The translations under genes and the position numbers were made by a program. Below the pieces are notes generated by a model, which was not told the DNA's origin, ran no database searches, and was given only the letters and a program-made list of their open reading frames with translations. From a virus, in the IMG/VR virus record IMGVR_UViG_3300025083_000102, positions 1-36,551 of that record: 36,551 nucleotides of DNA; one strand, given 5' to 3'. Shown in pieces: positions 507-31,659 of this stretch (position 1 is its first letter; every line of letters starts with the position of its first letter).

Positions 507-854
507 TTACCAGTCCATTACCTTTTTAATATTTCTTGCTTTTGATAGTTTGTTTGTTTCCATCAAAAACTCATTCATTGCCTCATTATATTTTTCAATA
601 ATCATTAACTTGAATTCATGTAAGTCATCAATTTGGATTGGTGTATTACGACTGTCTTGTATTACTGCGTTTTCAAATTCATTGTCTAGTAGACTTTGAA
701 TAAAACTAATCAACAGTTGATCAGCTCGCCATGTACCTTTTTGATACATAAATGTCTGCTGTGTTTCCATTCTAATTTTGAGGTTTTTCTTTTGATTTTC
801 TATTGTCATTCGATAATTAGAAAATTCCAATGCTTTTTCTAAGCGGTCATCCAT
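507..854 (-). CDS. Small hypothetical protein, helical
   Basis: A 115-residue protein that I do not recognise as a named family. It is rich in Glu, Lys, Asn and Met and looks almost wholly helical, with heptad-like stretches at both ends (residues 1-35 and 85-110), so a small coiled-coil or oligomeric protein is likely. It has no signal peptide or membrane segment. The ATG at 854 has a good ribosome binding site (GGAGGT about 10 nt upstream). It is the first gene after a sigma70-like promoter and is followed without a gap by the glycosyltransferase-like gene, which suggests a two-gene transcription unit separate from the baseplate cluster. Confidence 0.7.
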   Translation of the reverse strand: MDDRLEKALEFSNYRMTIENQKKNLKIRMETQQTFMYQKGTWRADQLLISFIQSLLDNEFENAVIQDSRNTPIQIDDLHEFKLMIIEKYNEAMNEFLMETNKLSKARNIKKVMDW

Positions 855-3213: not shown

Positions 3214-3819
3214 TTATGATCCTGCTGTAATTCTAATTGTATATATGATCTGAATTTTACGGTTTTCACTCTTCTGTACAGGATGGAAAATAACATGAGT
3301 TAAATATACACCTCCTGGAGTTTTTAAACCTAGTTCATCAAAAATATAATTTCCGGTTAGGTTAGCAGCATTATCTAATGCGTCCTGACCGCTTGGCTCG
3401 TTGTAGCCAAGTGTACATGTGATAACAATATCACTGTATGTGTTACCGCCAGTGTGTACTACAACCATATTATTATCAGGGTCAGCACTTGCTGTGTTTG
3501 CAACGCCTTTACTGTATGTTTCGTTGTACAACTGTCCAGTAGCACTATTTGTATTTGTTGCTTGGTATGTTACTACACCAGTAGCATCAACACTAACACC
3601 ACCATTACCAAAGCCCATGTTTAAAACATGGTATGCGTTTCCTGTTGTACCGTCACCATCTGTTAAATTAGATAGCAAATGTGCAATAGCAACACTCATA
3701 TTTTCATAGTTAATTGCATTACGTTTGTTTACAAATACCTCACCAGATTCTGGATCTAGAATTTTGATATGGCCCATAACGCCTAACCCTGTTTTTTCAA
3801 TTTCTTGTAACTGATGCAT
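3214..3819 (-). CDS. Virion structural protein downstream of the giant protein
   Basis: A 201-residue protein whose N-terminal region (residues ~15-50, GHIKILDPESGEVFVNKRNAI) resembles conserved structural proteins of marine T4-like phages. The rest is beta-rich with a Gly/Asn/Thr-rich middle (residues 60-135) and an ordered C-terminus (VIFHPVQKSENRKIQIIYTIRI). It starts at ATG 3819 with AGGAAAT upstream and has its own late-type promoter 23 bp before the start. It is probably a baseplate-peripheral protein in the position of T4 genes 8-11, but no specific assignment is possible by eye. There are no membrane segments and no cysteine pairs of note. Confidence 0.6.
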   Translation of the reverse strand: MHQLQEIEKTGLGVMGHIKILDPESGEVFVNKRNAINYENMSVAIAHLLSNLTDGDGTTGNAYHVLNMGFGNGGVSVDATGVVTYQATNTNSATGQLYNETYSKGVANTASADPDNNMVVVHTGGNTYSDIVITCTLGYNEPSGQDALDNAANLTGNYIFDELGLKTPGGVYLTHVIFHPVQKSENRKIQIIYTIRITAGS

Positions 3820-3841: not shown

Positions 3842-3849
3842 TATTTATA
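3842..3849 (-). promoter_or_regulatory. T4-type late promoter TATAAATA
   Basis: An exact TATAAATA on the minus strand lies 23 bp before the ATG at 3819, within a 50-bp gap. It matches the -10-only late promoter recognised by gp55 in T4. It would drive the three distal genes 3819-925. Confidence 0.7.
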
Positions 3850-18479: not shown

Positions 18480-18487
18480 TATTTATA
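18480..18487 (-). promoter_or_regulatory. TATAAATA box immediately before gp25
   Basis: An exact late-promoter octamer on the minus strand whose near edge is 5 bp from the gp25 ATG (18474). If used, transcription would begin at or just inside the start codon, giving a leaderless mRNA. It may instead serve the gp6 cistron, or be a chance match in AT-rich DNA. Confidence 0.4.
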
Positions 18488-18490
18488 ACT

Positions 18491-19042
18491 TTAATAAACA
18501 GGTGTTTTAATAGTTAATAAATCTGCTGGCCAATTTAAAAATTCCTGCCAAGCTGGGTCAGGAATTGTTAGTTTGTAACATTTGCTTTGTTGATATATTT
18601 GATGCCAAGTTGGCCGGGTAGGTGGCCGCATGGGAGATATGTCTTGCCGACTTCCCTTTTTACCATTACAGTGATTACATGCTGCAACCATGTTTTGCCA
18701 TGTACTTTTACCGCCATGTAAGCGTGGAATAACATGATCAAATGTTAATTCATGGTGATAAAACTTAACTCCGCAGTATTGACACCGGTAGTCGTCCCTG
18801 ATAAACAAGTTTCGTCTACTAAGTTTTGCGTGAGATTTACGTTTATGATACATTTTTGCAACAATAATACTGGGTACATCAAATTCTATACTTGGTGATC
18901 TAACTTTCCAGTTGTCATGTGTTTTAAAGATGTATATACTATCTTTATAGTAGGCGCTTATACTTTCTTTCCAACTGAGCGTACTTAGTGGGCTTAACTC
19001 CATGGGTTGAAAATCAGCATTGAGCAAAAGTGTGCTTGACAT
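18491..19042 (-). CDS. HNH endonuclease
   Basis: A 183-residue protein of the common bacterial HNH family. The N-terminal part (LLLNADFQPMELSPLSTLSW... KVRSPSIEFDVPSIIV) and the RRNLFIRDDYRCQYCG entry are typical of chromosomal members. The core is complete: C87-x2-C90, D102-H103, N117, C122-x2-C125 and N126-x-K-K-G, so two zinc knuckles and the H-N-N catalytic set are present. HNH genes are often mobile in phages (homing) or help DNA packaging beside terminase. Here it sits among baseplate genes with its own late promoter (19064-19071) and an AAGGA site before the ATG, so it is a probable insertion. Role unknown; nicking or homing is inference. Confidence 0.88.
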   Translation of the reverse strand: MSSTLLLNADFQPMELSPLSTLSWKESISAYYKDSIYIFKTHDNWKVRSPSIEFDVPSIIVAKMYHKRKSHAKLSRRNLFIRDDYRCQYCGVKFYHHELTFDHVIPRLHGGKSTWQNMVAACNHCNGKKGSRQDISPMRPPTRPTWHQIYQQSKCYKLTIPDPAWQEFLNWPADLLTIKTPVY

Positions 19043-19063: not shown

Positions 19064-19071
19064 TATTTATA
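19064..19071 (-). promoter_or_regulatory. T4-type late promoter TATAAATA before the HNH gene
   Basis: An exact octamer on the minus strand in the 32-bp gap between the lysozyme and HNH genes, 22 bp before the ATG at 19042. It is spaced like the other late boxes in the window and would drive HNH-gp25-gp6 and the giant gene. Confidence 0.7.
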
Positions 19072-19074
19072 GGA

Positions 19075-19788
19075 TTATAATTGGCCGAATTTGGCAATAA
19101 GCTCACGCTGGCGCAAGTTAGTCATACCAGGTATAAATGCTGTGGTCTGTCTGTAGTATCCACTTTCGCACTGACGTTTACTAAGTTCAGTTGTTATACT
19201 ACCACTTGTATATTGTTTAAGAGCATACGAAATTCCTTCACTACGTAAGTATTGTCGTGTTCTACTAGTAGTATAATCAGCTAGTTGTAAAACTCTAGCT
19301 TCTGCTCTGCGTGATGAAGGATTAACTTTTCCATCAGCTATCATATCAGTTGCTAACAGCCAACGTCCAGCACGAACAGCCGTAAACACATCATATACTC
19401 CAACATCACTGGTTACTTTTTTCCAAGTACCAGTATCACAATATAATCCAAATAATGCATCATAATGTGACTGCGACATACTAATAAGTGGCAGGGTTGA
19501 TTTAAATATGGTCTCTTTACTTTTGATATATTCAATCCAAGCACTGTATGCTTCTGACTCAGTTATACCAATACCAGTTGCGTCACCATAACCATATCCA
19601 ATTTTAAAGTTTTTGCCGTCTGCAGAGTATCTAAACATACGATACTCACTACCAGCCAACATTAGTTGTAGCATTTCAGCACTAACAGTAAGTTGTGGCA
19701 ATGCAATCAAAAAGTTTACTCGCCAATCATCTTTAACAATATATGTATCCCATGCAGTTCTGCGGTTTTCTGTTACAAAATTAAGCAT
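19075..19788 (-). CDS. GH24-like (T4-type) lysozyme domain protein, hub-associated
   Basis: A 237-residue protein. Residues ~40-180 follow the phage lysozyme (GH24) plan: AGSEYRMFRYSADG, then the IGYGYG loop, ITESEAYSAW, MSQSHYDALFGLYCDTG, AVRAGRWLLA, and NPSSRRAEARVL, which matches the family's R-R-x-x-E region. E48 and D57 have the same spacing (9) as T4 E11 and D20. The usual Thr before IGxGH is Lys (K62) and the His is Tyr, so activity is uncertain. In T4 this domain is inside gp5. Here it is a separate gene that overlaps the gp5 3' end by 8 bp, so it is probably translated with gp5 and mounted on the hub to cut peptidoglycan during injection. There is no signal peptide, so it is not an export-type endolysin by itself. 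Confidence 0.7.
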   Translation of the reverse strand: MLNFVTENRRTAWDTYIVKDDWRVNFLIALPQLTVSAEMLQLMLAGSEYRMFRYSADGKNFKIGYGYGDATGIGITESEAYSAWIEYIKSKETIFKSTLPLISMSQSHYDALFGLYCDTGTWKKVTSDVGVYDVFTAVRAGRWLLATDMIADGKVNPSSRRAEARVLQLADYTTSRTRQYLRSEGISYALKQYTSGSITTELSKRQCESGYYRQTTAFIPGMTNLRQRELIAKFGQL

Positions 19789-21517
19789 AGCCGTTGGCCA
19801 AATGTTTGTCTAGTGTACTTTTAGCATACGGTGCAATACCAGCGTATGTAAATCCACTGCCCCATGCACTGCGTCTGCCTGTGCGTATATCAAAATGCAA
19901 ACTCTTATCATTGTATACACCAATACCAGTTATGCCAACACTACTAGCAATTGCAACTAACTGCAAACGCTGATCGTTTGTAAACTGTGCACCACTGATA
20001 TCAACAGCGTTGCCTTGCATATGCTGTGATTTTTTAGCGCCGCCAACTTTTGCATTATAGTTTGGACTACGATAACCACTGGTAATAGTTAAAGGCTGTC
20101 CAAACTTTTTAGCAACTTGTTTAACTAACTCAAGCAACTTTGGATTTACTGCACGGTCAACTCCAGCTCTCCACTGTATCAATCCGCTAGCGTCAGTTTC
20201 AGCTTCAGGAAAATCTCCCAAATCATAAGCACCTGTATTTTCACCAGCAGTAGGGTTGGCTGGTGTTTGATAGTAATAAGTATCACTTGCATATTGATCA
20301 GTAGTGCCAGCAGGGCTACTGGTGTCTACAACTTGAACATCTAAGTGTCCATTCCATGGCTCAGCTTCTGGCACTCTAGTACTAACACTTTCTTTTACAA
20401 CTTTGTTACCAGTATGCTGTGTTGTGGTTGGCGTTGCCGCCGCTAAAGCTGGTGGACCATTCATATCAATACGACTGGCTGTTTCTCTATAGTTTCCAGC
20501 AACTCGTAAATTGCCGTTACTTTCTGTTTCTATTTGTAAATTACTGTGTGCTTTAATGTCAATAGTACCAGTACTAGCATGCATCTTAACACCAGCAACT
20601 CCAAGACTTTTTATATTTGTTCCAAGTTTACTTTGCATATTAATATTGCCGTCAGCATTTATATTAAAATCGCCAGCAGTATTAAAGTTGATAGAACTTT
20701 GGGCATACACATCTAAATCACCATTACGGTTCATTTCAATCCAACTGTTGCCATCTTTACTAATAATGTATGTAAATCCATTTGTGTCATCCATTAAGAT
20801 TTGCGCACCGCCAGCAGTACGTAAACGAACTAAATTACTTGTACCATCTTCAGCACCGCCATCGTCCATAACAAATGCATGACCGTCCGGTGTACTCATA
20901 CCCATTACACGACTTTTGCTTTCACGTCTAGGATTACTAAAGTTTAATCCACGTAGCCTGTCTTTTTCAAGACCTTGTGTTTTTAAAGCTTCAGCTTGTG
21001 GGTGCGCTTCGGGTGGTTGGTTTTCTGTTTCTCTAGTTTTTGGAACTTCTTGTACAATTGTAAAATTACCATTGCTATCCAATCCACTTTGCGGTCCAGC
21101 AATACTACCGTTACGTGTTTCGTCAGGTAATACACCCAATACAATACCAACATTACTATCACCACTAAATGCTACTAAAACTTCAGTGTCTAAATCTGGG
21201 GGCTGTCCCCACATACCAAAACTACGTTGCGATGAACCTCCAGCAGGTGTTGTTCCACCAAATGGACTCATAAAACGGCACCAAACAGCACCCAAGTATT
21301 CACTGTCTCTATCAACCTTGTCAACTAATTCTGGATCTAGCATTCCGTAAAAACGAGCAATACTTACTTTAACACGGCCCATCTGTCTGGGATCGTCACT
21401 GTTGATAACAAATCCTCTGTATACACCTGCAGGAATTTTAATTCCCTTCTTAATAACATTTTGGTTGTATGCGTCTTTAACTCGTCTACTAAATTTATTA
21501 CTACTTGCGTGGCTCAT
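19781..21517 (-). CDS. 5: Baseplate hub/spike protein gp5 with C-terminal M15 peptidase
   Basis: A 578-residue protein with three parts. Residues ~30-130 form the gp5/VgrG OB-fold (YRGFVINSDDPRQMGRVKV, VWCRFMSPFGG, DTEVLVAFSGD, VGIVLGVLPD). Residues ~200-345 are short repeating strands (GDLDVYA, GDFNINADGNINM, GTIDIKA, SNLQIET), the triple-stranded beta-helix needle. Residues ~455-560 are an M15-type peptidase: SGYRSPNYN, then S-x-H-x2-G-x-A-x-D with H499 and D506, and SLHFD with H541 and D543, the expected zinc ligands. T4 gp5 carries a lysozyme between OB and helix instead. Here a peptide-cutting domain sits at the tip end and lysozyme is a separate gene. ATG overlaps the upstream stop (ATGA). 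Confidence 0.88.
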   Translation of the reverse strand: MSHASSNKFSRRVKDAYNQNVIKKGIKIPAGVYRGFVINSDDPRQMGRVKVSIARFYGMLDPELVDKVDRDSEYLGAVWCRFMSPFGGTTPAGGSSQRSFGMWGQPPDLDTEVLVAFSGDSNVGIVLGVLPDETRNGSIAGPQSGLDSNGNFTIVQEVPKTRETENQPPEAHPQAEALKTQGLEKDRLRGLNFSNPRRESKSRVMGMSTPDGHAFVMDDGGAEDGTSNLVRLRTAGGAQILMDDTNGFTYIISKDGNSWIEMNRNGDLDVYAQSSINFNTAGDFNINADGNINMQSKLGTNIKSLGVAGVKMHASTGTIDIKAHSNLQIETESNGNLRVAGNYRETASRIDMNGPPALAAATPTTTQHTGNKVVKESVSTRVPEAEPWNGHLDVQVVDTSSPAGTTDQYASDTYYYQTPANPTAGENTGAYDLGDFPEAETDASGLIQWRAGVDRAVNPKLLELVKQVAKKFGQPLTITSGYRSPNYNAKVGGAKKSQHMQGNAVDISGAQFTNDQRLQLVAIASSVGITGIGVYNDKSLHFDIRTGRRSAWGSGFTYAGIAPYAKSTLDKHLANGYA

Positions 21518-23589
21518 CTTGGTCCTCCACTTTCTTGAATTGCTGCTGGGTCTGATGTGAATTGTTGTAATTGTGCATCTGGATTATTTGTACCTATACC
21601 AGCCAATGGTACAATTTGTGGTGATTGTAGTGTTCCCAACACTGTACTAGTATTGGTTGCTAAATCTCTAACTGCACCTAAATGTTGAGTAAACATACCG
21701 CCGTTAAATCTATTAATAACATCAATAACACGATAGGTACCACTGAGAGTATAGTCGTCTCTGGGTATTCTTCGTCCTGCACTATTCTCGTCAATTGGAA
21801 ACTTAACATTTAGAAAAAATAGTATACCACCCTTTTCGTAATCTGCTAACTCGCTAGTAGTAGAATTATTTCTATAAAAGCTACTGGGCAATCCCATCCA
21901 GTATGGGTCTCCACGTATGCCCATTTCAATTTTTAGCATATCAGCACTATTTTCTAGATTACTTTTAACTGCACCAAATTGTAATGTGCCACCGGATCCA
22001 TCGTTTTCAGGACCGTAAATGTCACCGTCATCCACAATGTCTCCTGCAAATCTTAAACGCATACTGATATCATCTTTTGCTTCAGAAGCACTTAGGAAAT
22101 TTCCGCTTGCACTGGTGCCATCACTACCACGTGTTAAATCAGCAAACTCAGCTAATTTAGCATCAAGTTCTGATTGAACTTCGCTTCTTTGTTCTTCCAA
22201 TTCTTCAATTTGTATTTCTCTATTAATAATAACACTGGGCGGAGCACCACTTTTTTGTTGGTTTAGTTTAGATATCTTTCTACTAATTTCTACAATACTC
22301 TTTTTTAAGGCTTTGACACCATCATGTACTGTTGGTGCGGCTTGGCCGGCTGTTGATGCGTCTTTATTTGCATCACCAACTTGTCCGTTACCCACAACAC
22401 TAATTTCATAATACTGGTTATCAAATTTTAAGTCCAGTTGCATAATTTCAGAATTTAGTCCAGTAAAAATATAATCATAACGTTTGCGTAGTAAATTTTG
22501 TGTAAACATTTTTTGTACTCTAGAATTCTGTATAGTAGCATTAGTAATGCCCTTTCCATACTGAACACTATCCATAATACGATCAACCATGATATGCTTT
22601 TTAATTTTGAATGTAATTATTTTAACATAGTCACCTCGCAATGGGTCAAATGGTCCAAATTCTACTTTGGGTACTACTTTATAAAATACTGGGAATTCAT
22701 CTAAATTTTGATTGCTGGGCTCTCCTGGTGCTACTTTCATAAATCCACCAGTATCAGTTACAATCTTTTTATATTCTTCAGTTGCTTGTAAAACCATACT
22801 GGTTATATCTGCCAGGTTACTACCATTGGGTATAGTAAAATGTATCTTGTCGCCAATTTTACTAGGGCCTAGTGTTTTTAGTCCCTCTGCAGCCTGTTGT
22901 ATCTTCCATTGTTGCCAAGTATCTGTACCAGTATCACTATCCCATTCAATACTGTATTCATCCTTGTATGCGGCATTCCAATTAAACAGTAGATCATTTT
23001 CCAAGCTCTTCTCATATTTTTGCATAAACTCACTGACAAATTCACCAACTGTCGCGGCCTCAACTGTGATTTGACTTTTAATAACTTGTTCCAAATAACT
23101 AAATGCACTTACACTGTTTTCAACTGCATTGATATTATAGTTGGCACCGCCAGCATCAACTTGCATTTGTATGTCTTGAAATACTATTGGATATATAAAC
23201 TTTAGCGGGTGTCGTTTAGCACTACCATTTGACACACGGCCAATAAATTCAACTGTGAAAAAATACCTTGCCAACAAATGGTTTTCAATATTAAGTTGTC
23301 TTGCAGTCAGTGCAATGCTTTCCAAAAATGTAGTACCATTGGGTTCAGCTATTTTGATAGTAAACATATTTCCATATGTACTACGTACCTGACCAAATCC
23401 AACTTTAAATGATTGTTCTACGTCAGCAATATTATATCTTGATTCCTGACTGTTGTCAGCCATAACAATTGTCTTGCCACTACTAATAGCTGCATCAAGC
23501 AGTCCAGCACTATCAGGATGCACCATGTGTAGTGCAAGATTATAACTGTAACTGTCATATTGATTAAGTGTATTTTCTAAGTAAGACAA
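21514..23589 (-). CDS. Large baseplate hub protein, gp27-position
   Basis: A 691-residue protein translated just before gp5 and overlapping it by 4 bp. In T4 the hub protein gp27 (391 residues) holds gp5 through its OB domain, and the close coupling here suggests the same partnership. Seen: mixed alpha/beta N-terminal half (FTIKIAEPNGTTFLESI, FFTVEFIGR), Trp-rich middle, a long coiled coil at ~435-495 (KSIVEISRKISKLNQQKSG... ELEEQRSEVQSELDAKLAEF), and a C-terminal GTYRVIDVINRFNGGMFTQ segment typical of tail hub proteins. The start is TTG at 23589, supported by AGGAG 6 nt upstream. The gp27 name is from position and style, not proven homology; no motif settles it. Confidence 0.55.
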   Translation of the reverse strand: MSYLENTLNQYDSYSYNLALHMVHPDSAGLLDAAISSGKTIVMADNSQESRYNIADVEQSFKVGFGQVRSTYGNMFTIKIAEPNGTTFLESIALTARQLNIENHLLARYFFTVEFIGRVSNGSAKRHPLKFIYPIVFQDIQMQVDAGGANYNINAVENSVSAFSYLEQVIKSQITVEAATVGEFVSEFMQKYEKSLENDLLFNWNAAYKDEYSIEWDSDTGTDTWQQWKIQQAAEGLKTLGPSKIGDKIHFTIPNGSNLADITSMVLQATEEYKKIVTDTGGFMKVAPGEPSNQNLDEFPVFYKVVPKVEFGPFDPLRGDYVKIITFKIKKHIMVDRIMDSVQYGKGITNATIQNSRVQKMFTQNLLRKRYDYIFTGLNSEIMQLDLKFDNQYYEISVVGNGQVGDANKDASTAGQAAPTVHDGVKALKKSIVEISRKISKLNQQKSGAPPSVIINREIQIEELEEQRSEVQSELDAKLAEFADLTRGSDGTSASGNFLSASEAKDDISMRLRFAGDIVDDGDIYGPENDGSGGTLQFGAVKSNLENSADMLKIEMGIRGDPYWMGLPSSFYRNNSTTSELADYEKGGILFFLNVKFPIDENSAGRRIPRDDYTLSGTYRVIDVINRFNGGMFTQHLGAVRDLATNTSTVLGTLQSPQIVPLAGIGTNNPDAQLQQFTSDPAAIQESGGPR

Positions 23590-23590
23590 C

Positions 23591-23884
23591 TTAAACTCCT
23601 ATTGAGCTAGTATTAATTGGTACACGGAGAGTGACTCCAGTTTTAAAATCAAATATTGGATCAACAATCTTATTACGATTGAATAACACAAACACCCACC
23701 AGTAGTCTGCGTCACCGTACAATTCAAATGCAAGTACATCTGGTCGTAAATTGTGCTTGGCGGTTAATGTTATCTCTTTTGTATTTTCATAACTAATAGT
23801 TACTGGTGGAACATACGATTCCAAATACTTACTGTTTGATTTAGTTTTACTGTATACACTTGTTTTTTTATATGTAACTGCCAT
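23591..23884 (-). CDS. 53: gp53-like baseplate wedge protein with LysM-type fold
   Basis: A 97-residue protein. The core NLRPDVLAFELYGDADYWWVFVLFNRNKIVDP, then G-x-x-L-R-V-P, is the pattern of phage LysM-like baseplate proteins and of T4 gp53 (E-x-LA-x-x-IYGNPxxYWVLLxxN). T4 gp53 is twice as long (196 residues), so this is a minimal version that keeps the peptidoglycan-fold core. gp53 holds wedges together beside gp6 and gp25. It sits between the tube-cap-like gene (TAATG overlap at 23884) and the hub protein (1-bp gap). It could also be a hub-associated LysM protein rather than the true gp53. Confidence 0.6.
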   Translation of the reverse strand: MAVTYKKTSVYSKTKSNSKYLESYVPPVTISYENTKEITLTAKHNLRPDVLAFELYGDADYWWVFVLFNRNKIVDPIFDFKTGVTLRVPINTSSIGV

Positions 23885-24471
23885 TAGATAAATCCTCCAC
23901 GATAAAGTGATCCATTAGCAAATCCATTCAGTGTAAACTGACTTTTTGTACGTCTTGGACTGTATTGTACCAGTAGGTCCATGGCAATAGTAGCCACTGT
24001 TGGCATCTGTACTACACCTCCGCCAACGCTGGCTTCTACGTAATCTACATCATCTGGAAAACTTTGTGTAAATCCGCCAACCAAAACTGGTACACGTTCA
24101 TAGTTTGTTGCACCATATGCACTAAATTCCAATACAGGAGGAGGAGCACCACGATCCGGGTCACCTTCTCCAAAATTCATTTTAGTAACTACTCTTAAGA
24201 AATGATATACTCCAGCCAAATATTGGATCTCTTCAGTTGTTTGTTGATAAAAAGTTGCTGTAATTTGAATACCTGGAGGGCTACTACTTTGAAATGCATG
24301 CGGCTGACTGTTTGTGTGTACCAAATCATATTTACTATATGCTACCTGTACTTGTGTTTGGATTGTTGGTGTATATGGAAATACAATACCACGATTTAAA
24401 ACACTTGCAGGTCCTTGCAGTGCTTGGTTGTATCCACTTTTACATAACAGTCTGGCACGTTTATCTTCCAT
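23884..24471 (-). CDS. Baseplate tail tube cap-like protein (gp48/gp54 type)
   Basis: A 195-residue protein. The C-terminal third (RVPVLVGGFTQSFPDDVDYVEA, VQMPTVATIAMDLLVQYSPRRTKSQFTLNGFA) follows the pattern of T4 gp48/gp54 tail-tube junction proteins, where a conserved strand is followed by P-T-x-I-x-x-x-L-x-x. T4 gp48 is 364 and gp54 320 residues, so this protein is shorter. The N-terminus starts with a basic helix and then beta strands. It is joined to both neighbours by one-base TAATG overlaps. Its place before the hub genes fits a protein at the baseplate-tube junction. Naming between gp48 and gp54 is not possible here. Confidence 0.5.
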   Translation of the reverse strand: MEDKRARLLCKSGYNQALQGPASVLNRGIVFPYTPTIQTQVQVAYSKYDLVHTNSQPHAFQSSSPPGIQITATFYQQTTEEIQYLAGVYHFLRVVTKMNFGEGDPDRGAPPPVLEFSAYGATNYERVPVLVGGFTQSFPDDVDYVEASVGGGVVQMPTVATIAMDLLVQYSPRRTKSQFTLNGFANGSLYRGGFI

Positions 24472-25091
24472 TATTTGCGTCCTAGCTTTTGGTCCATTGT
24501 ACTCATTACTTGCTGATCAAATGCACCAAACAAATCTGTAATAAATTGCTGTGCTTGGTTATCATCAAGTGTTGCGTACTGTCTGCGTAACTCAGTGGCG
24601 CTTGTTGCTGGCTCACCAAGTACTTTAAATTTTTGTGTTGGTACAACATCTAGATACCCGTGTATATCGTATGTTTCACGTGTGTCTTTGTTGTGCTGAT
24701 AATATGTAGGCTCTCCGTTTTTCTTGAGTCCTACTTTAAAACGTGGATTACCTTCATCCATATCCTTTTTGCCGACACCAAATACTGCGGCTGTTGTTTT
24801 AGCATCTAAACGATCTAATATTTCATTAGGAACGTATGGCTGTCGTGTATTGACAATTGCACTGGCTGGAACACCAGTAAGCATCATCATACGCTTTTTC
24901 TCTTCAAAACTAAATGGCGAGTCTGGTCCTTGCTTATCGCTAGTAGCAATAAAAGCAGTGCCATATTTGCCTGATAAATAGTCGTACACAAACTTATGCC
25001 CTTTATGAAAGGGATGAAAACGACCAGGATAGATAGCCACTGCTTTTGTTGCAGTTGCTTCTAAAAAACTAATAACTTCATTGATCAACAT
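24471..25091 (-). CDS. Nucleotidyltransferase (cytidylyltransferase/NMNAT-like)
   Basis: The ATG at 25091 was chosen because GGAG lies 9 nt upstream; a GTG 15 bp further upstream is in frame but would overlap that site. The product is 206 residues with the adenylyl/cytidylyltransferase signature: AIYPGRFHPFHKGHK (H29-x2-H32, the (H/T)xGH motif), then a beta/alpha Rossmann layout, and near residue ~165 the S-A-T-E-L-R-R segment, in place of the ISxTxxR motif. It should bind a nucleoside triphosphate and transfer the nucleotide; substrate unknown (NMN, phosphopantetheine and others are possible). Similar genes occur in marine T4-like phages beside baseplate genes. It is first in the late cluster and overlaps the next gene by one base. 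Confidence 0.8.
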   Translation of the reverse strand: MLINEVISFLEATATKAVAIYPGRFHPFHKGHKFVYDYLSGKYGTAFIATSDKQGPDSPFSFEEKKRMMMLTGVPASAIVNTRQPYVPNEILDRLDAKTTAAVFGVGKKDMDEGNPRFKVGLKKNGEPTYYQHNKDTRETYDIHGYLDVVPTQKFKVLGEPATSATELRRQYATLDDNQAQQFITDLFGAFDQQVMSTMDQKLGRK

Positions 25092-25109
25092 TGTAATAAT
25101 CTCCACTAC

Positions 25110-25117
25110 TATTTATA
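25110..25117 (-). promoter_or_regulatory. T4-type late promoter TATAAATA heading the baseplate cluster
   Basis: An exact octamer on the minus strand, 18 bp before the ATG at 25091. It leaves a short leader that contains the GGAG ribosome binding site. It should be read by gp55-RNA polymerase and drive the baseplate genes leftward. It lies about 25 bp from the divergent sigma70 promoter of gp55. Confidence 0.8.
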
Positions 25118-25142
25118 CACTGAAAAAAGTGTGACTTTTAGA

Positions 25143-25171
25143 TTGACATAGTGTATAATGAATGTTATAGT
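25143..25171 (+). promoter_or_regulatory. Sigma70-type promoter of the gp55-gp47-gp46 operon
   Basis: A perfect -35 TTGACA (25143-25148), 17-bp spacer, -10 TATAGT (25166-25171), about 25 bp before the gp55 ATG at 25196. The boxes and spacing are identical to those at 891-919 on the other strand. It suggests host polymerase reads this operon early or middle, before gp55 is made. Confidence 0.8.
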
Positions 25172-25195
25172 TATAACTACATAAGGGAAATATCT

Positions 25196-26098
25196 ATGGC
25201 AAAACGAGTAAATTATTTAAACAACAAGGAACTTCTTAAGGAAATTCACAAGAGTAAGATTAGTTTCGCCTGTGTTACTGACGAGAAATACTATCAGAAT
25301 GATGCTATTGTACATGACATGGACCAGATAACTGATGAAGTTATTGCCGAAGCTAAACAAACACGTGCTGATAGAATAGCTGTGGAAACACATGCTAAAG
25401 CACTAACCCAGTGGGAAAATACACCGGGTAAAAAGGCAAAAGACAAACCTAGGCTAATTAACCACAAGTTTGATGGTAGTGAAATACCACTTGAAGATGT
25501 AGTTATTAGATATATGACATTTGATCATGTGCCATTAGAGCCAGGACGTAAGAATAAACCAAAAACTATAGCTGATCAGCATGCAAAATGCAATTATCCG
25601 CCATTCATTCACTTAGCCTGGGTAGAAGGCAAATGGACAGAAGTTGTGCGTAGCCACTGGAAAGGTGGGTTAAGCAACGGACATTTTAGTGTTTCACATG
25701 GTCGTATTACAGAAAAGTTAGCTAGTATGATGATGATGTTGTGTCACCGATACAGTATGCGTAGTAACTGGCGAGGATATACGTATGTAGATGAAATGAG
25801 AAGCCATGCATTAGTACAATTATCACAAATTGGATTGTACTTTGATGAGAGTAAATCAGCAAATCCATTTGCATATTACACAGCGGCTATTACTAATAGC
25901 TTTACACGAGTGCTTAATTTAGAAAAACGTAATCAAAATTTAAGAGATGACTTGCTTCAACAAGCAGGCCAAACACCCAGCTTTACACGTCAAATGGATG
26001 ACGAAGCTCAACAGCGTAAAGCAAGGGAAACCAAAGAGTCAGATTACCATGATAAAATGGAGCAAGAAATGAAAGATGCAGGTTATAACGTACTATGA
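25196..26098 (+). CDS. 55: Late transcription sigma factor gp55
   Basis: The start at the ATG 25196 (MAKRVNYLNNKELL) was preferred to an in-frame upstream GTG at 25151, which lies within the promoter. AAGGGAAA precedes the ATG. The product is 300 residues. The N-terminal YLNNKELLKEI matches T4 gp55 YVNNKELLQAI, and residues ~175-260 (GRITEKLASMMMMLCHRYSM, YTYVDEMRSHALVQLSQIGLYFDES, ANPFAYYTAAITNSFTRVL) match the sigma region-2-like core. T4 gp55 is 185 residues. About 110 extra residues (~45-155) with no recognised domain separate the two parts. In T4, gp55 works with the sliding clamp gp45 and coactivator gp33 at TATAAATA promoters, which are present in this window. It overlaps gp47 (ATGA). 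Confidence 0.88.
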   Translation: MAKRVNYLNNKELLKEIHKSKISFACVTDEKYYQNDAIVHDMDQITDEVIAEAKQTRADRIAVETHAKALTQWENTPGKKAKDKPRLINHKFDGSEIPLEDVVIRYMTFDHVPLEPGRKNKPKTIADQHAKCNYPPFIHLAWVEGKWTEVVRSHWKGGLSNGHFSVSHGRITEKLASMMMMLCHRYSMRSNWRGYTYVDEMRSHALVQLSQIGLYFDESKSANPFAYYTAAITNSFTRVLNLEKRNQNLRDDLLQQAGQTPSFTRQMDDEAQQRKARETKESDYHDKMEQEMKDAGYNVL

Positions 26099-27117
26099 GT
26101 CAATTCTTCAATAAAGTTGCGTGTTTTACAGATATACACTTTGGTAACAAAAACAATAGTAGACAACACAATGATGATTGTGAAAGGTTTATCTATTGGT
26201 TTATTGAAAAAGCCAAAGAGGCTGGATGTGAAACATGTATATTCCTAGGGGACTGGCATCATCATCGTGCTAGTGTTAATGTTAGTACACTGAATTATAC
26301 AGTACCAAATATTAAACGACTAAGCGAAGCGTTTGAAAATGTATATATGATTATGGGAAATCATGACTTATACTACAGAGAAAAGCGTGAAATACACAGT
26401 GTTCCGTATGCTGATTTACATGACAATGTACACATTATCAATGATAAAATGGTAGAACGAGACGGTGTTAGCCTTGTTCCTTGGCTTGTTGAAGACGAGT
26501 GGAAGAAGATGAATAAGCTCAAATCACGTTATGTATTTGGACATTTTGAACTTCCATTCTTTAAAATGAACGCTATGGTTACTATGCCGGATCATGGCGG
26601 ACTTAAAGCTGAAGACTTTAACGGTCCCGAATATGTGTTTAGTGGACATTTCCACAAACGTCAGGACAACGGCAATGTTCATTACTTGGGTAGTCCGTTT
26701 CCACACAACTATGCAGATGCATGGGACGACGAACGTGGCATGATGATACTCAATTGGGGAGGTGAACCAGAGTACATAGACTGGACAGATGGCCCTAAGT
26801 ATAGAACACTACCACTAAGTAAACTGATAGACGACCCAGATCGCTACTTGAGTGCAAACACGTATTGTCGTGTAACACTTGATGTGTCTATCAGTTACGA
26901 GGAGGCAAACTTTATCAAAGAGACTTTTGCAAAGCAATACAGTCTCAGAGAAATTAGTTTACTGCCTGCTAAGAAAGAAGAACATGCTACTGATTGGAAA
27001 ACTGACAACGAAATAGAGGTTGAAAATGTGGACCAAATAGTGTATAATCAACTTAAAGCTGTTGATAGCGAACTGATAAACAGTAAAATTCTTATGGATA
27101 TATATGCGAACTTATGA
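26095..27117 (+). CDS. 47: Recombination endonuclease subunit gp47 (Mre11/SbcD type)
   Basis: A 340-residue protein, the normal length (T4 gp47 is 339). Metallophosphatase motifs are in order: D13-x-H15 (CFTDIHFG), GD53 in LGDWHHHR, GN89-H90-D91 in MGNHDLYY, then GHFELPF and the SGHFHKR motif with metal-binding histidines. gp47 pairs with gp46 to process DNA ends for T4-type recombination-dependent replication; the subunit holds the nuclease site. It lies between gp55 and gp46 with 4-bp ATGA overlaps on both sides, so the three proteins are made in coupled fashion. Confidence 0.95.
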   Translation: MSQFFNKVACFTDIHFGNKNNSRQHNDDCERFIYWFIEKAKEAGCETCIFLGDWHHHRASVNVSTLNYTVPNIKRLSEAFENVYMIMGNHDLYYREKREIHSVPYADLHDNVHIINDKMVERDGVSLVPWLVEDEWKKMNKLKSRYVFGHFELPFFKMNAMVTMPDHGGLKAEDFNGPEYVFSGHFHKRQDNGNVHYLGSPFPHNYADAWDDERGMMILNWGGEPEYIDWTDGPKYRTLPLSKLIDDPDRYLSANTYCRVTLDVSISYEEANFIKETFAKQYSLREISLLPAKKEEHATDWKTDNEIEVENVDQIVYNQLKAVDSELINSKILMDIYANL

Positions 27118-28889
27118 TTAATATTAGAAACGTAACCATTAAAAACTTTATGAGTGTTGGTAACGTCACACAAGCCGTACGGTTTGATGACGCAGGACTC
27201 ACACTAGTACTAGGCAACAATGTTGACTTGGGCGGTGACGGTAGCCGTAATGGCACTGGTAAAACGACAATCATTAACGCATTAAGTTATGCGCTATATG
27301 GAAACGCACTAACAAATATTCGCAAGGATAATTTGATTAACAAAACTAACAACAAAGGCATGTTAGTTACTGTAGACTTTGATGTTAACGGAACTGAGTA
27401 CCGTATCGAACGTGGACGTAAGCCAAACATCTTTAAGTTTGTAGTAAACAACCATGATTTTCATGATGACGCTACAGATGAAAGTCAGGGTGTTGGACGT
27501 CTTTCACAACAAGAAATAGAAAAGCTTCTGGGTATGAGCCATGATATGTTTAAACATATTGTTGCATTAAACACATACACTGAACCTTTTTTAAGTATGC
27601 GAGCTAATGATCAACGTGCTATTATCGAGCAATTGCTGGGTATTACTATGTTAAGTGAAAAAGCAACAGTACTTAAAGACCAGATGAAAGAATCGAAAGA
27701 CTCCATCAAAGAAGAAGAATATCGTATCAAAGGGGTAGAAGAAGCAAACTTAGCAATTGCGAAAAGTATTAAAGACTTAGAGCGCAGACGCAGAGTTTGG
27801 GAAGAAAAGAAAACTAATGATACGATTGCTTTTGAACAGGCGATTGCCGAACTGGAGCATCTTGATATTGAAACGGAACTTACTGCACATGCAGATTTAA
27901 TTACGTTTAACAATAAAGTAACACAACAGTCACAGCTACAATCTTTTGTTAAGTCAATTGAAGCTGATGATAAGAAACAAGGTAAGCTAGTCGAGAAGCT
28001 AGAAAAAGAAATTGGTCTGCTAACAGATCACAAGTGTTATGCTTGTGGACAAGACATGCATGATACAAAACAAGAAGAAATTCTCAAATCAAAACAAGAG
28101 CAGCGTCATGACGCCGCCATGCACATTGTTGCTAACGGCACACAGTTGCAAGAGCATAATACGGCTCTACAACAACTAGGTGAAATCGGCACTGCACCTA
28201 GTACATTTTATGATGACATTGCTGATGCACATGATCATCGTAACAAAGTTGTACAACTACAAGGTCAACTTGATCTTAAAAAAGCTGAAAATGATCCGTA
28301 TACAGATCAAATTGAAGCATTGCAAAATGAAGGCATCCAGGAGGTTTCGTGGGACAAGATTAATGATCTCAATGTCTTACGAGATCACCAGGACTTCTTA
28401 ATGAAACTGTTGACAAACAAAGACAGTTTTATTCGCAAACGTATTATTGAACAAAACTTATCATACTTAAACACAAGACTTGGCTATTATCTAACTAAAC
28501 TCGGGCTACCACATGAAGTACAATTCCAACCAGACTTAACTGTAGAAATTACAGAGCTTGGTAGAGAACTTGACTTCGACAACTTATCTAGAGGCGAACG
28601 CAACAGGCTTATACTTGGCTTATCATGGGCATTTAGGGATGTATTTGAAAGTATGAATACACCTATTAACTTTTTGGCAATTGACGAACTAGTAGACTCA
28701 GGCATGGACAGCAATGGTGTAGAAGCATCATTAGGCGTACTCAAGAAGATAGTACGTGAAAGAAACAAAAACGTATTCTTAATTAGTCACAGAGACGAAC
28801 TTGTGGGACGAGTAAGTCATACTCTGCAAGTACTAAAAGAGAATGGGTTTACAACATTTAATGCGGATACAGATTATGTCGAAGAATAA
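27114..28889 (+). CDS. 46: Recombination endonuclease subunit gp46 (Rad50/SbcC type)
   Basis: A 591-residue ABC-type ATPase, close to T4 gp46 (560). Walker A is at ~43-52 (RNGTGKTT). Long coiled-coil arms flank a zinc hook C308-Y-A-C311. The signature LSRGE is at 491-495, and Walker B (NFLAIDELVDSG) has D524-E525 as catalytic pair. The H-loop equivalent is in FLISHRDEL. With gp47 it forms the Mre11-Rad50-like complex that loads recombination at DNA ends and is needed for T4 late DNA replication. All key residues are present. It overlaps the upstream gene by 4 bp and the next gene by 14 bp. Confidence 0.96.
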   Translation: MINIRNVTIKNFMSVGNVTQAVRFDDAGLTLVLGNNVDLGGDGSRNGTGKTTIINALSYALYGNALTNIRKDNLINKTNNKGMLVTVDFDVNGTEYRIERGRKPNIFKFVVNNHDFHDDATDESQGVGRLSQQEIEKLLGMSHDMFKHIVALNTYTEPFLSMRANDQRAIIEQLLGITMLSEKATVLKDQMKESKDSIKEEEYRIKGVEEANLAIAKSIKDLERRRRVWEEKKTNDTIAFEQAIAELEHLDIETELTAHADLITFNNKVTQQSQLQSFVKSIEADDKKQGKLVEKLEKEIGLLTDHKCYACGQDMHDTKQEEILKSKQEQRHDAAMHIVANGTQLQEHNTALQQLGEIGTAPSTFYDDIADAHDHRNKVVQLQGQLDLKKAENDPYTDQIEALQNEGIQEVSWDKINDLNVLRDHQDFLMKLLTNKDSFIRKRIIEQNLSYLNTRLGYYLTKLGLPHEVQFQPDLTVEITELGRELDFDNLSRGERNRLILGLSWAFRDVFESMNTPINFLAIDELVDSGMDSNGVEASLGVLKKIVRERNKNVFLISHRDELVGRVSHTLQVLKENGFTTFNADTDYVEE

Positions 28890-31572: not shown

Positions 31573-31581
31573 TTTAACCTC

Positions 31582-31589
31582 GCTAAATA
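31582..31589 (+). promoter_or_regulatory. Late-type promoter (GCTAAATA) toward the tape-measure gene
   Basis: The motif GCTAAATAG on the plus strand resembles the late box with C in place of T-A at the second position. It lies 70 bp before the ATG at 31660. It points toward, and faces, the minus-strand box at 31626-31633. Confidence 0.4.
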
Positions 31590-31596
31590 GTAATAG

Positions 31597-31613
31597 TGCC
31601 ACAACATGTGGCA
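31597..31613. repeat. Inverted repeat between divergent genes
   Basis: TGCCACA and TGTGGCA separated by ACA, a perfect 7-bp inverted repeat. It sits between two face-to-face late-type promoters, so either transcript would carry a 5' hairpin. It could be a protein operator or an mRNA 5'-stabilising hairpin. Confidence 0.7.
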
Positions 31614-31625
31614 ATATGGTAATAT

Positions 31626-31633
31626 TATTTATC
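31626..31633 (-). promoter_or_regulatory. Late-type promoter GATAAATA for gp26
   Basis: Seven of eight bases match TATAAATA on the minus strand, 53 bp before the gp26 ATG. The same GATAAATA form precedes gp20 at 34763. Confidence 0.55.
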
Positions 31634-31659
31634 TACGTACATAATAGCAGATTTTAAGC

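Follow-up and report, generated by a model that had tools for sequence, protein, structure and literature searches.

A predicted divergent promoter pair between the gp55 late sigma gene and a baseplate cluster in giant T4-related phages

In a 36,551-nucleotide stretch of viral DNA (IMG/VR record IMGVR_UViG_3300025083_000102; here, the window), the gene for a gp55-type late sigma factor heads a rightward gp55-47-46 operon, and a gap of 104 bp (25092-25195) separates it from a minus-strand baseplate cluster. This arrangement raises the question of whether the promoter that makes the sigma factor lies back to back with a promoter that the factor would itself use. We consider it likely, at about 85%, that giant T4-related phages carry a conserved divergent promoter pair where the gp55-47-46 operon meets the baseplate cluster, with feed-forward via gp55. 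The pair is a variant of the T4-type late system, which is already known.

The junction and the leftward cluster

The window gp55 has sigma region 2 homology to T4 gp55, matching it in structure 7d7c (7d7c_F, E = 5.6e-6), and belongs to the gp55 late sigma family on the basis of phrog_12791, phrog_234, and 7d7c_F (Table 1). The promoter in front of it agrees at 11 of 12 positions with the host sigma70 consensus (TTGACA, 16 to 18 nt, TATAAT), and 24 nt lie between TATAGT and the gp55 ATG at 25196. On the other side, the first leftward gene begins with an ATG whose A is at 25091, and 18 nt separate this codon from an exact TATAAATA. The original prediction had placed TTGACA-17-TATAGT ahead of gp55 and an exact TATAAATA on the minus strand ahead of the leftward cluster, and both are present, at 25143-25171 (+) and 25110-25117 (-); remeasurement returned the same 25 nt between the late box and TTGACA, and standard spacing from the elements returned the same predicted starts, near 25178 (+) and 25104 (-), which are 74 bp apart. 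By analogy with T4 late-box geometry, the leftward late mRNA would open with the Shine-Dalgarno sequence GGAGA and have a leader of ~13 nt. A 9-bp perfect inverted repeat in the gap, TTATACACT/AGTGTATAA (25113-25121 and 25150-25158), was rejected as an operator, being kept only in the near-identical loci L001-L003 and lost from L004 onward.

Table 1. Coordinates of genes and promoter elements at and around the gp55/baseplate junction of the window
Feature	Position	Strand	Evidence or remark
gp55-type late sigma factor, 300 aa	25196-26098	+	phrog_12791 (1e-84); phrog_234 (1.5e-24)
gp47 (SbcD-like), gp55 direction	26095-27117	+	phrog_100 (5e-70)
gp46 (SbcC-like)	27114-28889	+	phrog_77 (1e-96)
-35 element TTGACA, gp55 promoter	25143-25148	+	sequence match; TTGAC invariant in 9 lineages
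-10 element TATAGT, extended TGn	25166-25171	+	17-nt spacer; predicted +1 ~25178
Shine-Dalgarno AAGGGA of gp55	25183-25188	+	AAGG-like site kept in alignment
Late promoter box TATAAATA	25110-25117	-	exact match; predicted +1 ~25104
Shine-Dalgarno GGAGA, leftward gene	25100-25104	-	TCTCC kept in alignment
Cytidylyltransferase-like protein, first leftward gene	24471-25091	-	phrog_395 (6.8e-10); PF01467 (0.0023, under its cut-off)
Virion structural protein	23884-24471	-	phrog_12050 (8e-40)
Baseplate wedge subunit	23591-23884	-	phrog_7145 (5.7e-25)
Virion structural protein	21514-23562	-	phrog_11190 (2.7e-46)
Baseplate hub subunit and tail lysozyme	19781-21517	-	phrog_13211 (2.8e-23)
Internal late box TATAAATA, ahead of HNH endonuclease gene 18491-19042	19064-19071	-	exact match
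Internal late box TATAAATA, 5 nt ahead of gp25 ATG	18480-18487	-	exact match
Internal late box, ahead of gene 3214-3819	3842-3849	-	sequence match

The late box in the gap had been read as serving a 24-kb cluster; the leftward promoter stands, and the single unit does not, since late boxes also occur inside the cluster, at 3842, 18480, and 19064 and 5' of gene 507-854 (-), and one 24-kb transcript from 25104 is thus not implied. The box 5 nt from the gp25 ATG would put a T4-type start on the A of that codon and is thus predicted to yield a leaderless late mRNA; its spacing to the ATG is identical in the relatives G001, G002, and G003. In a related locus, L022, an apparent homologue of the 23884-24471 product, as judged by eye from likeness of the open reading frames, lies directly behind the late promoter.

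Other features of the window were seen in passing. The HNH endonuclease gene, which has a TATAAATA to itself, sits within the baseplate cluster, and gene 507-854 is preceded by an 11/12 sigma70 promoter and by CATAAATA, both on the same strand. A second divergent gap, at 31573-31659, has a baseplate hub gene on its left, a 1,028-aa open reading frame on its right, and a minus-strand GATAAATA late box; compare CGTAGATAAATA, which recurs ahead of a gene of the same size in G001-G004.

Position and conservation of the motifs

The motifs themselves are no more frequent than chance predicts. Exact TATAAATA occurs 5 times in the whole window against 5.57 expected, with no enrichment, and between 22 and 36.5 kb there are 46 sigma70-like sites against 46.3 in shuffles; the gp55 site ties for the top score among those of the window. 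Taken alone, these counts are what would be seen if the promoters were chance AT-rich matches; position and conservation decide whether they are real. In the window, 6 of 9 NATAAATA are on the sense strand 3 to 60 nt 5' of a gene start (binomial P ~5e-9). With five relatives added to the window, giving six records, 59 of 92 are so placed relative to called gene starts, where ~3% is expected, against 12 in the corresponding antisense position; these positional counts are approximate because the gene calls came from a simple script.

Relatives were drawn from IMG/VR and from annotated phages. The divergent gp55/structural arrangement is found at 85 of the 89 gp55 loci examined, for which automatic gene starts gave none at L067 and L134 and the wrong minus-strand gap at L007, L026, and L029. 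Annotations of five cultured giant phages, MIJ3, PBECO4, GAP32, Atu_ph07, and SCTP-2, show the same order, the gp55 neighbours in the last two being labelled only as hypothetical proteins. In an intergenic alignment of nine lineages, what is mainly kept is the leftward start codon and the Shine-Dalgarno site of each gene, together with the late box, the -35, and the -10, seen as the blocks TCTCC, ACTATTTAT (ATAAATAGT on the minus strand), TTGAC, the -10, and AAGG.

This phylogenetic footprint is specific to strand. Of 14 lineages, 13 carry NATAAATA on the minus strand, where 1.39 would be expected, and none carries it on the plus strand; when gp55 proteins are grouped at 70% identity, all 22 clusters have the late core TAAATA on the minus strand (5.08 expected) and 14 have a strict sigma70 promoter on the plus strand (0.06 expected), with none on the opposite strand, although the quoted odds overstate certainty because the relatives are not independent samples. 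Some lineages have GGCTAAATA, GGTTAAATA, or GGTAAATA in place of NATAAATA, and PBECO4 and GAP32 have a -35 other than TTGACA, which in GAP32 reads TGGAACG. Sense-strand enrichment and conservation of the core are as expected if the leftward element is a T4-type late promoter, and they contradict a chance origin of the pair, which is exceedingly improbable.

Late co-activators and known systems

Late transcription in T4 involves gp55, a late TATA box, gp33, and the gp45 clamp (PMC2988020), and T4 and the window share a gp55-family sigma factor, a TATAAATA-type box about one turn 5' of the start, which in the window is a predicted one, no need for a -35, and late structural genes. They differ in that gp55 has 185 aa in T4 and 300 aa in the window, and in that gp33 and gp45 are not detected in the giant clade. 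Five complete giant phage genomes gave no match to gp33 (PF16805) or to the gp45 clamp (PF09116, phrog_223); of the controls, the cyanophage S-TIM4 matched PF16805, PF09116, and phrog_223, and T4 matched phrog_223; PF02916 missed the S-TIM4 control and was set aside as uninformative. The authors of the CBB genome likewise reported the absence of gp33 and gp45 (PMC5259590). Divergent homologues of either protein may exist in giant phages, but since no member of these families was found, late activation in giant phages probably differs from that in T4. The giant-phage gp55 proteins also have no counterpart of DFLYE at the T4 gp55 C terminus (SLDFLYEAND), which is missing in S-TIM4 too; S-TIM4 has a clamp, so lack of the clamp-binding motif does not exclude membership in the gp55 family.

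The divergent gp55/baseplate junction is absent from T4, S-TIM4, and the Methylophilales phage Melnitz-2. T4 gene 55 is co-directional with the genes around it, and no baseplate operon diverges from it. It has an early promoter, Pe40.4, and a middle promoter, Pm55 (PMC6024815). S-TIM4 and Melnitz-2 have the gp55-47-46 order, but sizeable annotated genes upstream are co-directional with gp55 and no divergent baseplate operon is located there. Cronobacter phage GAP32, in contrast, has the same divergent gp55/baseplate order as the window. An independent MEME analysis of Enterobacteria phage CBB gave ATAAATA ahead of structural genes, and the gp55-like gene of CBB comes straight after a predicted promoter of a second class, most members of which precede DNA-synthesis genes (PMC5259590). 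A late motif of this kind and a predicted promoter next to gp55 are common to CBB, GAP32, and the window; the -35 of the gp55 promoter in CBB and GAP32 is TGAAACG-like and not TTGACA. The transcription section of that paper does not discuss a divergent pair, published accounts of MIJ3 and PA5oct give no promoter or timing data, and a search of titles and abstracts turned up no relevant account of divergent phage sigma/late promoters.

Coupling and spacing of the two promoters

Conservation of the promoters, the family of gp55, and the divergent order together make a feed-forward logic well supported at the level of sequence. Host sigma70 RNA polymerase would transcribe gp55 rightward in the early or middle phase, and gp55 would then displace sigma70 on the host core polymerase. 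The resulting gp55-polymerase would open late promoters of the TATAAATA type, among them the one in the 104-bp gap, which would fire leftward into the start of the baseplate cluster. Such a compact promoter pair would matter for the early-to-late step in giant phages, where the T4 co-activators are undetected. Of the early-to-late switch proposed for this gap, the feed-forward part (host-type promoter, gp55, and late promoter, in divergent order) is thus borne out by sequence and conservation, and the part in which the two promoters interfere is not supported as a general feature, as their spacing varies.

In cluster representatives the predicted starts are 48 to 96 bp apart, and in L125-L127 the distance reaches 122 bp; spacings of 16 to 32 bp, which reflect sigma70 calls that were weak or misplaced, are left out. 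A conserved fixed spacing, as expected for obligate interference, was therefore rejected (48 to ~120 bp), and mutual interference of the two promoters is unsupported as a general rule. It may occur locally where the promoters are close and is not required by the best explanation.

With starts 74 bp apart in the window, RNA polymerase footprints that extend 5' of -40 would meet or overlap, and the gap could act as a compact interference switch in which the two holoenzymes exclude each other and late complexes at 25104 shut the gp55 promoter, giving negative feedback. The late box abuts or overlaps TTGAC in L105, L110, L112, L124, L131, L132, and Atu_ph07, with predicted starts ~48 bp apart in the six L loci, as such a switch would have it. 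The variable spacing argues against it, as does the sliding clamp, which extends the T4 footprint upstream and has no detectable homologue in giant phages, and we regard this addition to the feed-forward scheme as rather unlikely. The same variability suits another account in which two functionally uncoupled promoters lie where oppositely oriented operons merely meet, their proximity reflecting genome compactness. A short gap is expected in a dense genome (~97% called coding), and several further late boxes occur in the leftward cluster; yet the junction with both promoters persists over most of the clade, down to ~40 to 50% gp55 identity, though other causes could preserve the gene order. We judge this account of the proximity somewhat more probable than not.

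Returning to feed-forward via gp55, some loci carry an additional element. A late-box dyad, TATTTA-N5/6-TAAATA (17 to 18 bp), lies in the gap upstream of gp55 at 14 loci in two clusters (L096, L097, L102, L107, L108, L109, L111, L113, L114, L117, L120, L122, L123, and L133); the window gap has none. The dyad is possibly a second late box facing gp55, making it a candidate bidirectional late promoter that also feeds gp55, and a late box added in this direction would favour late gp55 expression, not shut-off. More tentatively, giant phages might run gp55 late transcription without T4-type gp33/gp45 activation and use the junction as a conserved hub, tuned by spacing (abutting boxes, mutual exclusion) or by a second gp55-facing late box (positive feedback). 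Together, the loci whose boxes abut, those with wide spacing, and those with a late-box dyad form a natural comparison set for promoter geometry versus timing.

The gp55 gene itself varies in L022 (6004-7872), and also in L023 and L024, where the protein has an insert of ~300 residues within sigma region 2 (NWRGY|C...GN|SY); the insert resembles an intein (PF14890, 2.7e-5, under its cut-off).
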